Of a stretch of DNA of 40,957 nucleotides, positions 6,325-32,618 are shown in pieces. The notes below the pieces were generated by a model. The model was given only the letters and a program-made list of their open reading frames with translations, did not search any database and was not told the origin of the DNA. The translations under genes and the position numbers were made by a program. The stretch's first letter is position 1, and the number at the start of each line of letters is the position of its first letter. The stretch is from NCBI GenBank assembly GCA_002714805.1, contig PAYK01000003.1:138022-178978 (forward strand). The letters are read 5' to 3'. Source of the DNA: Flavobacteriales bacterium. Its GTDB lineage: Bacteria > Bacteroidota > Bacteroidia > Flavobacteriales > UBA7312.

Positions 6325-6999
6325 GTGAAACAATATACAATCATAGTTGCGGGAGGTCGTGGAGCTCGAATGGGTTATTCAATACCTAAGCAATTTATAG
6401 ACCTCAATTATAGGCCAATCCTAATGCATACTATTGAAAAAATGCATCAAATTTTAGATCATTCTGAAATAATCTTAGTTTTACCAAAAGCTGAATTTAA
6501 AAATTGGAAAAATCTCTGTCAAAAACACCAATTTAACATAAATCATAAACTTGTTGAAGGCGGGAATACACGTTTTGAATCGGTTAGTAATGCTTTAAAA
6601 AAAGTCAATGAAAAATCTGTTGTTGCCGTACACGACGGCGTTCGTCCGTTAGTTAAAAATAGCGTAGTTAATAAATGTATGCAGATAGCACAAGAGAAAG
6701 GAACTGCAATTCCAATCATAGCGATTGAGGAAAGCTTGAGACAAAAAACTGCAGGAGGAAGTGTTGTTGTTAATAGAGACGAATACCTTATTGTTCAAAC
6801 ACCTCAATGTTTTAGAAGTGAGGTATTATTAGAGGCCTACCAACAGGATTATTCGCCTACATTTACTGATGACGCTTCAATTGTAGAAGCTTTAGGGATA
6901 GAGATACAACTTATTCAAGGCAATAAAGAAAACATCAAAATCACAACACCAGAAGACTTAAAGAAAGCTCAAGTTTACATAAATTTAATATCAGAATAA
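6325..6999 (+). CDS. ispD: 2-C-methyl-D-erythritol 4-phosphate cytidylyltransferase
   Basis: Third enzyme of the non-mevalonate (MEP) isoprenoid pathway; couples CTP with methylerythritol phosphate. The nucleotide-binding signature AGGRGARMG followed by PKQF is at the N-terminus, and VHDGVRPLV lies around residue 108, as in the family. The start codon is GTG at 6325, 2 nt after the queA stop; no ATG nearby preserves the glycine-rich loop. Length 224 aa is typical. The last 9 nt overlap the tail of the opposing amidohydrolase gene. Isoprenoid supply links it loosely to the polyprenyl synthase and uppP in this window. Confidence 0.95.
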   Translation: MKQYTIIVAGGRGARMGYSIPKQFIDLNYRPILMHTIEKMHQILDHSEIILVLPKAEFKNWKNLCQKHQFNINHKLVEGGNTRFESVSNALKKVNEKSVVAVHDGVRPLVKNSVVNKCMQIAQEKGTAIPIIAIEESLRQKTAGGSVVVNRDEYLIVQTPQCFRSEVLLEAYQQDYSPTFTDDASIVEALGIEIQLIQGNKENIKITTPEDLKKAQVYINLISE

Positions 7000-8124
7000 C
7001 TTTTTAACCTGACTAGCATCTGTTAATTTTCCATCTATTATATGATTTATATAATTGATGCCAGGTATTTTACCTTTTTTTAATGTTCCTAATGCATCTA
7101 GCCCAAGAAATTCAGCGCCGTTTTTACAAGCCCATTCCATCAATAAATCTAAGGAAACATAAGATTGTATCGTTTTCATTTCTTCCAAAATAGATAGTGT
7201 ATCGTTAGATGCTAAACTATCAGTTCCAATCGTCATTTTAACTTGAGCATCTATAAACTGTTGGTAGTTAGGTAATTGATTTTCTATATATAAATTAGCT
7301 TTAGGGCAAGTGCACCAATAAAGCTTATCGAAATTAGATATAGCCTCTGTCATATCTTCTTTTTTGGTAAAGGTATTATGCACTAATAAAATAGGAGATT
7401 CTGGCAATAAAGGAAGGGTGCTTTGAAGTGCAGTCTTACCAGTGTACTTGAAAAATTCTTTTGCAATAAGTTGTGACAACAATTTACCGGTACCATTCAA
7501 AAACATAGTGTCTTCCTCAGACGTTTCTTGACTGTGTATACTGATAATTTCCCCCTTATTATGATGTCTAATCTTTTCGAAAAGAGGCAAAGAAACCGAA
7601 TAGTTAGCATGAGGTGTTAAAGAGTTGGGGGTGTTACATAATTCACTAAGTTTCAGCCCTCGCTCAAATACTTCTTCAGCTTTATGGGGATTAGAAGAAA
7701 ATAATTCGATAAAAGTGTAATAATATATGGCACTATTAGCTTTTGAAGAAAAAGAATCTGCTGTATTACTAATGTCTGCTACAGCCACAATTCCATTATT
7801 ATACATCTGTCTGTCTGCTAACTTTAAGGCATCGTCTTTTCGTCGCTGACTAGCCTTTCTAATTTGACCTATAGAGTTAATAAAATGTGGTAATCCTGTT
7901 TTTGGGGCTAACTCTCCCTGCAAGTGTGACAACTCCAAATGACAATGAGTGTTGATAAATCCAGGGCAAAGAGCACCTCTAAAATATTCTAAATTAGCAC
8001 TGTCTATCTGCTGATTATCTTCAAGTAAATCTGCAATTTTTCCATCATCGTCAACAACAATAACACCATCGTAAATAGGACTAGAAAAAGCCGTAAAAAT
8101 GATATCTGATGTTAAGTAGCGCAT
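6991..8124 (-). CDS. Amidohydrolase family protein (cyclic deaminase type)
   Basis: Metal-dependent hydrolase of the amidohydrolase superfamily, in the subgroup of cytosine/aminofutalosine/S-adenosylhomocysteine-type deaminases. Metal ligands are visible in order: HxH in GFINTHCHLELS (near residue 60), His in SIHSQET (near 199), His in LVHNTF (near 250) and Asp in IGTDSLASN (near 302). Length is 377 aa. The substrate cannot be read from the sequence; aminofutalosine deaminase (menaquinone synthesis) is one possibility, but no other futalosine-pathway gene is nearby. It is divergent from rlmN and its start codon lies inside a palindromic double promoter. Confidence 0.85.
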   Translation of the reverse strand: MRYLTSDIIFTAFSSPIYDGVIVVDDDGKIADLLEDNQQIDSANLEYFRGALCPGFINTHCHLELSHLQGELAPKTGLPHFINSIGQIRKASQRRKDDALKLADRQMYNNGIVAVADISNTADSFSSKANSAIYYYTFIELFSSNPHKAEEVFERGLKLSELCNTPNSLTPHANYSVSLPLFEKIRHHNKGEIISIHSQETSEEDTMFLNGTGKLLSQLIAKEFFKYTGKTALQSTLPLLPESPILLVHNTFTKKEDMTEAISNFDKLYWCTCPKANLYIENQLPNYQQFIDAQVKMTIGTDSLASNDTLSILEEMKTIQSYVSLDLLMEWACKNGAEFLGLDALGTLKKGKIPGINYINHIIDGKLTDASQVKKLF

Positions 8125-8160
8125 AGAGTGTACAAAGATAGTATCTTTGTGCGCTCTATG
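8122..8160. promoter_or_regulatory. Palindromic bidirectional promoter, amidohydrolase gene/rlmN
   Basis: A 39-bp inverted repeat centred on G8141. Both strands carry the exact -7 box TATCTTTG (plus 8142-8149, minus 8140-8133), and both start codons (CAT 8122-8124 and ATG 8158-8160) fall at mirror-image positions 8 nt past their boxes. Of 19 base pairs between arms 17 match, and the two mismatches (8131/8151 and 8129/8153) are T opposite G. Transcripts in both directions should have leaders of only a few nucleotides. No clear -33 element was found on either side. Confidence 0.85.
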
Positions 8161-9207
8161 TCTTTAGATAAAAAAAATATTCGCACACTTACCTTAGACG
8201 AACTTAAGGACTTTTTCAAAGAGAATGATATGCCCACTTTTCGGGCCAAACAAGTATACGAATGGCTATGGAAAAAGTCGGTATCTTCCTTTGAAGAGAT
8301 GCGTAATGTTTCCAGAGAAACCATTCAATTGTTAAATGAGCACTTTGTTATTTTACACGCCAAAATTACAGAATCGCAAAAAAGTGCTGACCGCACCATA
8401 AAATCTGCTTTTAGCCTTTACGACAATAATAGTGTTGAAGGGGTGCTAATCCCTACCAAAAGTAGAATGACAGCTTGTATATCTTCTCAAGTTGGGTGCA
8501 GTCTAACATGTAAATTTTGTGCTACTGGCAAATTAGATAGACTGAGGAATTTAAATGCTGATGAGATTTACGACCAAGTATTTATGCTTAACGAACAAGC
8601 GCTAAGCAATTACAATAAAAAGCTGAGCAATATTGTTTATATGGGTATGGGTGAGCCTCTTTTAAACTACAGAAATGTTCTAGAGTCTATCGATAAAATC
8701 ACCTCGACAGACGGGCTTGGTATGTCGCCCAAACGTATTACGGTATCTACTGCTGGTATCGCAAAGCTGATAAAAAAGCTAGGCGATGATGAAGTCAAAT
8801 TTAATTTGGCACTTTCCTTACACGCTGCTAATGATAAGAAACGTGACTATATAATGCCTATAAACGAACAGAACTCCTTAGAAGCATTAAAAGAAGCCAT
8901 TGTCTATTTTTATGAAAAAACACAAACAAGAATAACCTACGAATACATCATTTTCAAGGACTTCAATGATGAAATTAGCGATGCCAAAGAGCTCGCTAGC
9001 TTTGCTAAAATTACACCCTGTAAGATCAATATCATTGAATACAACCCCATTGACAATGGAGAATTTCAACAAGCCAAAAGAGAAAAAGTAGATGATTTTG
9101 TTAATTTTATCAAAGGCAAAAATATTATTGTAAATGTTAGGAGAAGTCGTGGTAAAGACATAGATGCTGCATGCGGACAACTTGCCAATAAACTCGTAAA
9201 ATCCTAG
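8158..9207 (+). CDS. rlmN: 23S rRNA/tRNA adenine-C2 methyltransferase (radical SAM)
   Basis: Methylates C2 of A2503 in 23S rRNA and A37 of some tRNAs by radical chemistry. The radical-SAM cluster motif CKFCATG-type CxxxCxxC (within CSLTCKFC) is clear, followed by the MGMGEPLLN segment and the C-terminal cysteine in AACGQL that forms the methyl intermediate. The start is set at 8158 (MSLDKK...), 349 aa; the longer frame from 8128 would begin upstream of the -7 box TATCTTTG and is therefore unlikely to be transcribed. The next gene has its own -7 box immediately after the stop. Confidence 0.96.
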   Translation: MSLDKKNIRTLTLDELKDFFKENDMPTFRAKQVYEWLWKKSVSSFEEMRNVSRETIQLLNEHFVILHAKITESQKSADRTIKSAFSLYDNNSVEGVLIPTKSRMTACISSQVGCSLTCKFCATGKLDRLRNLNADEIYDQVFMLNEQALSNYNKKLSNIVYMGMGEPLLNYRNVLESIDKITSTDGLGMSPKRITVSTAGIAKLIKKLGDDEVKFNLALSLHAANDKKRDYIMPINEQNSLEALKEAIVYFYEKTQTRITYEYIIFKDFNDEISDAKELASFAKITPCKINIIEYNPIDNGEFQQAKREKVDDFVNFIKGKNIIVNVRRSRGKDIDAACGQLANKLVKS

Positions 9208-28649: not shown

Positions 28650-28657
28650 CAAAGATA
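28650..28657 (-). promoter_or_regulatory. DUF3109 gene -7 box, leaderless configuration
   Basis: Minus strand TATCTTTG, exact consensus, with 4 nt (TTTT) before the ATG, so the transcript should begin at or next to the start codon. Confidence 0.65.
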
Positions 28658-28691
28658 ACGAAAGACAGTACAAAAATGTAACGAATATGTT

Positions 28692-28699
28692 TATTTTTG
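28692..28699 (+). promoter_or_regulatory. glyS -7 box, leaderless configuration
   Basis: TATTTTTG, exact consensus, with 4 nt (CTCT) before the glyS ATG. Together with the facing DUF3109 box it makes a compact 58-bp divergent promoter region. Confidence 0.65.
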
Positions 28700-32534: not shown

Positions 32535-32618
32535 GCCCGAGTGGCGGAATTGGTAGACGCGCTGGATTCAAAATCCAGTGATAGCAATATCGTGCCGGTT
32601 CGACCCCGGCCTCGGGTA
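32535..32618 (+). tRNA. tRNA-Leu (anticodon CAA)
   Basis: Complete class II tRNA of 84 nt. The acceptor arm GCCCGAG pairs with CTCGGGT (first pair G-U), followed by discriminator A. The anticodon stem CTGGA/TCCAG encloses loop TTCAAAA, so the anticodon is CAA, reading TTG leucine codons. A variable arm follows, and the T-arm reads GCCGG-TTCGACC-CCGGC. CCA is not fully encoded (the genome continues CATT). It sits in the gap between prs and the dCMP deaminase gene with its own promoter and terminator. Confidence 0.97.

Follow-up and report, generated by a model that had tools for sequence, protein, structure and literature searches.

Back-to-back -7 boxes and a putative inverted leader copy between an amidohydrolase gene and rlmN in a Flavobacteriales genus

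An amidohydrolase-family gene and its divergent neighbour rlmN probably both begin transcription from two abutting, mirror-image -7 boxes, and the symmetry that extends beyond these boxes to both start codons most likely arose by a short inverted copy of one side's leader onto the other. The locus lies in the window, by which we mean the whole 40,957-nucleotide stretch of Flavobacteriales DNA analysed. According to our explanation, back-to-back sigma-A -7 boxes (8133-8149) would start transcription of the two genes divergently with very short leaders, and RNA polymerase would bind this core in one orientation at a time. In the ancestor of the genus, a 4-nt rlmN spacer, predicted to yield a leaderless mRNA, would have been replaced by an inverted copy of the 8-nt amidohydrolase spacer, and selection acting on the two promoters and leaders individually would then have maintained both arms. 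Taken as a whole, we consider this account reasonably likely. The features of the region are as follows.

6991-8124, minus strand: amidohydrolase-family gene (PF01979; the nearest NCBIfam model, aminofutalosine deaminase family hydrolase, scored below its cut-off)
8158-9207, plus strand: rlmN, dual-specificity RNA methyltransferase (TIGR00048, 378.5 bits, cut-off 290)
8122-8160, no strand: near-perfect palindrome from start codon to start codon (17/19 pairs, centre 8141)
8142-8149, plus strand: rlmN -7 box TATCTTTG of the sigma-A type TAnnTTTG (consensus, and its place at -12 to -5, taken from PMC9723704)
8133-8140, minus strand: amidohydrolase -7 box TATCTTTG, separated from the rlmN box by 1 bp
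8150-8157, plus strand: rlmN box-to-ATG spacer TGCGCTCT (predicted start about 8154, 5' UTR about 4 nt)
8125-8132, minus strand: amidohydrolase box-to-ATG spacer TACACTCT (predicted start about 8128)
8101-8181, no strand: constrained block (95-100% identity among this genome, locus L002 and locus L005, the last from the same-genus species that is most distant)

The amidohydrolase gene and rlmN are themselves ordinary genes. In same-genus relatives the alignments of both proteins start at residue 1, and that of the amidohydrolase does so in every relative that has the divergent pair, supporting both start codons.

A repeat search recovered two arms of 19 nt each (8122-8140 and 8142-8160), 89% complementary and 1 nt apart, with the sequence CATAGAGTGTACAAAGATA-G-TATCTTTGTGCGCTCTATG. 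The preliminary description had reported a 39-bp inverted repeat with 17 of 19 pairs matching and both start codons inside it, and an identical box on each strand 8 nt from ATG; both observations were confirmed. The pairs without a match are 8129/8153 and 8131/8151, and the outermost three bases of each arm form a start codon, that of the amidohydrolase gene on one side and that of rlmN on the other. Background statistics were collected from the whole of contig 3 (179 kb) and 260 kb of contig 5, together 439 kb of the 1.67-Mb genome. On contig 3 this was the only palindrome with a 1-nt spacer and at least 17/19 pairs, and 3 Mb of first-order Markov sequence with matching composition contained none; the other strong hairpins in the 439 kb were few and terminator-like in appearance. 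When the 8 nt following the box were compared between promoter-like sites of this genome, at least six of eight bases matched in 1.4% of site pairs and all eight in 1 of 5,995 (about 1.7e-4), the latter being the state of the palindrome spacers in four sister species. These rates indicate that the outer symmetry is not a by-product of the promoter consensus, in agreement with the earlier claim that symmetry past the -7 box goes further than the consensus requires.

The boxes match the Bacteroidota sigma-A consensus (TAnnTTTG, -12 to -5; PMC9723704, PMC7366714) exactly on both strands, upstream of and close to the start codon; unlike in an ordinary promoter of this type, two of them stand back to back, abutting without sharing a base. 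In Flavobacterium psychrophilum, TAnnTTTG occupies -12 to -5 relative to the transcription start (PMC9723704). This rule predicts starts at 8154 on the plus strand and 8128 on the minus strand, 26 bp apart, with 5' UTRs of about 4 nt compared with a 24-nt median in F. psychrophilum. Both strands have C as the predicted start base, whereas a purine is usual, which counts against the model. In the 439 kb, TAnnTTTG occurred within 40 nt upstream of a long open reading frame 149 times, compared with 52-82 times for four control motifs. No TTG was present upstream on either strand as a candidate -33 element (TTTG/TTG, about 17-23 bp upstream of the box). A TTG of this kind accompanies just 10% of promoter-like sites in this genome, and the -33 element was not found in F. 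johnsoniae (PMC7366714), indicating that it does not discriminate promoters in this group. A sigma-70 scan made no call at the palindrome. We infer both the promoter activity of the core and its start sites.

The core was compared with other genomes. We read the region upstream of rlmN in 64 loci of the same order, 29 with a divergent amidohydrolase neighbour and 35 without; the assemblies are metagenome-derived, and families and genera carry code names (f and g), g1 being the genus of this genome. Both boxes, back to back, were present in all 29 loci with the divergent pair, which belong to families f1, f11 and f15 and in which amidohydrolase identity falls to about 36%. The gap between the boxes is 1 bp in most of f1, 3 bp in one f1 genome and most of f11, 8 bp in f15, and 13-15 bp in some f11 genomes. 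In contrast, a reversed box lay within 40 nt upstream of rlmN in only one of the 35 loci lacking the amidohydrolase neighbour; these otherwise carry at most the rlmN box. This comparison shows that the pair has long kept its back-to-back boxes, and it lends good support to the core (8133-8149) as a shared divergent promoter region. The mirror-symmetric double promoter proposed earlier is thus upheld as an arrangement of boxes, its starts being predictions.

Within the genome itself, the composite motif CAAAnnTA-N0-8-TAnnTTTG occurred 17 times against 6 for a reversed control, and 9 of 15 inspected sites lay between divergent genes, suggesting that back-to-back boxes are a recurring divergent-promoter arrangement here. 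A second back-to-back site (L031 1501-1517; G000:C3:27556-27572) has a 1-bp gap and divergent starts and lacks outer symmetry. A further divergent pair, at window positions 28650-28699 (G000:C3:166671-166720), has facing boxes separated by 34 bp, with 4 nt between each box and its ATG.

The core would work in the way that bidirectional promoters do in E. coli and Salmonella (PMC12825309, PMC10268837), in which a short symmetric segment directs transcription both ways but can be occupied by a single polymerase only, often between divergent genes and with a weak or missing upstream element. As the starts here are predicted, we do not claim membership of that class in the strict sense. There are also differences: the boxes here abut with a 1-bp gap and share no bases, the predicted starts are 26 bp apart rather than 10, 18 or 23 bp, and the symmetry reaches past the boxes to both start codons. 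Searching the literature for Bacteroides bidirectional promoters that have a TAnnTTTG-type box gave no result. Because the predicted starts are only 26 bp apart, the two polymerases should exclude one another, and steric exclusion at bidirectional promoters has been stated (PMC12825309). The preliminary description had gone further, expecting the two genes to compete. This is sterically plausible, but exclusion does not have to lower output: in five of five tested E. coli bidirectional promoters the basal output was too low for competition, which appeared once one direction was activated (PMC12825309). Competition between the amidohydrolase and rlmN promoters is possible.

The outer symmetry has a narrower distribution than the boxes. 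In the four other g1 species, the spacers are TACGCTCT on both sides, producing a perfect 19/19 palindrome, while this genome has TACACTCT on the amidohydrolase side and TGCGCTCT on the rlmN side, and its two changed pairs are uncompensated. The genus is monophyletic, and its first-branching member (G004, locus L005; support 99/99) has the perfect form, so that by parsimony the perfect palindrome is ancestral for the genus and two pairs would have been lost in this genome. Outside the genus, the outer symmetry was absent from g2, g3, g4, f11 and f15 despite the gene pair and boxes; among the genomes sampled it was confined to g1. Boxes without symmetry outside them, the pattern that had been named as refuting the proposal, were thus found beyond the genus and not within it. 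The comparison of relatives showed symmetry kept in the genus (19/19 in four species) and no compensating changes.

The outgroups indicate which arm changed. The rlmN spacers in g3, g4 and g2 are CGCC, TGCA, TGCC and TGGC, 4 nt long and unlike that of g1, and families f3, f8 and f13 likewise include rlmN spacers of 4 nt. The amidohydrolase spacers of g3 are 8 nt long (TACACTCT or CACACTCT), and the TACACTCT of this genome recurs in a sister-genus genome. In the perfect form, the rlmN spacer of the genus equals its amidohydrolase spacer over 8/8 bases, and since the outgroup rlmN spacers are shorter and different, the rlmN arm appears to have changed in g1 and become a mirror copy of the amidohydrolase arm. 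No species with an intermediate rlmN spacer was found among the nine genomes of the family that have the locus. We propose that the likely route was a template switch during replication, in which the inverted boxes served as priming or pairing arms and the strand rejoined at the common ATG; this single step would have made the palindrome perfect and given rlmN a predicted 4-nt leader.

Four of the five g1 species show what such an event should leave, namely arms identical in one lineage and outgroups differing on one arm only. Known marks of template switching at inverted repeats are arm homogenisation and spacer inversion (PMC8604942). The locus resembles quasipalindrome template-switch mutations (PMC7202029, PMC8604942, PMC8794818) in having an inverted repeat whose arms are identical in one lineage and a centre base that varies between species, C in G001 (L004) but G in the remaining four g1 species, although plain substitution would explain this base too. 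It differs in being an inferred history, in lying at a promoter and in being joined to a change of leader length. The inverted copy rests on one event in five species. Of the three explanations originally offered for the symmetry, an inverted duplication, a site for a dimeric regulator and an RNA hairpin, the first fits the outer arms best. In L004, rlmN begins with ATGCAT rather than ATGTCT, which extends the symmetry by one base and is a two-base change beside the inverted repeat.

Convergence would make the outer arms alike without any copying, if both leaders had been selected separately toward TACGCTCT. We consider this unlikely. In G002 and G003 (L113 and L114), a TACTTTTG box close to another probable start has the related 8-mer TACACTCT after it, so that this promoter type may favour such a sequence on its downstream side. 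Against this, the bases that follow promoter-like sites in this genome are A/T-rich and show no such consensus, and convergence would need a 4-nt length change together with an 8/8 match on one branch. At L113 and L114, from two sister genomes, TACTTTTGTACACTCT lies after a terminator-like hairpin and before a probable start, and shares the 8-mer TACACTCT with the amidohydrolase arm.

There is a small chance that the perfect genus-wide palindrome is itself the selected feature, either as a shared operator or because equal -4 to +4 regions tie the strengths of the two promoters. If selection acted through such identical regions, amidohydrolase and rlmN output would stand in a fixed ratio. However, this genome tolerates two uncompensated changes, indicating that the symmetry itself is probably not selected.

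We give only a slim chance to the proposal that the palindrome is an operator at which a dimeric regulator represses or switches both genes together. Operators often overlap divergent promoters, and the perfect 19-bp arms of the palindrome were kept over a divergence that leaves only about half of third codon positions identical. Between L002 and L005, positions 8122-8160 are 100% identical, compared with 51% of third codon positions in the amidohydrolase gene and 57% in rlmN; in the comparison of the whole constrained block, which includes this genome, third positions are about 49-57% identical. However, g2, g3, g4, f11 and f15 keep the pair and the boxes and lack the outer symmetry, the two changes in this genome are uncompensated, and by inspection no apparent regulator gene lies among the immediate neighbours. 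Across six genomes, the arm motif with 0-1 mismatches was almost confined to the locus, and the near-matches inspected were mostly coding-like. Neither compensating changes nor convincing recurrence of the arms at other promoters was found, and the dimeric-regulator site of the preliminary description thus gained no positive support. A possible regulon was also sought in the six genomes with the arm motif AGAGYGTACAAAGATA at two mismatches and was rejected, as the off-locus matches inspected were mostly coding-like, except for the promoter-like L113 and L114.

A hairpin in RNA or DNA, whether an mRNA 5' stem-loop, a terminator or a cruciform, is very unlikely: the single strand folds almost completely (-13.2 kcal/mol, z -8.7), but the predicted mRNAs (from 8154 and 8128) begin beyond the centre, so that neither has both arms and each holds at most the last few bases of one, a terminator scan made no call there, and an Rfam scan of the window found nothing at the palindrome, its sole match being a tRNA at 32535.

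DNA-level constraint also enters both coding sequences by about 20 bp (8101-8181). Something beyond the boxes and leaders may thus be conserved, and promoter upstream regions lying inside the opposite gene could explain this coding-side constraint.

The spacing of boxes and start codons further bears on leaderless mRNAs. In contigs 3 and 5 of this genome (G000 C3 and C5), an interval of exactly 4 nt between TAnnTTTG and ATG is the commonest (16 of 149 sites, compared with 1-4 in controls), from which leaderless mRNAs are predicted to be common in this lineage, perhaps exceeding the 5.5% published for F. psychrophilum. Exactly 4 nt also separate the rlmN box from the ATG after it in many genomes of the order (f3, f8, f13 and g2-g4), suggesting that rlmN may be leaderless across much of the order. 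Bidirectional promoters have been studied best in enteric bacteria, and the back-to-back core would extend them to a Bacteroidota -7 box arrangement conserved across three families. The rlmN leader of this genus may be an example, with a history that can be traced, of a replication-type error rewriting the leader of a gene and turning a predicted leaderless mRNA into a leadered one.
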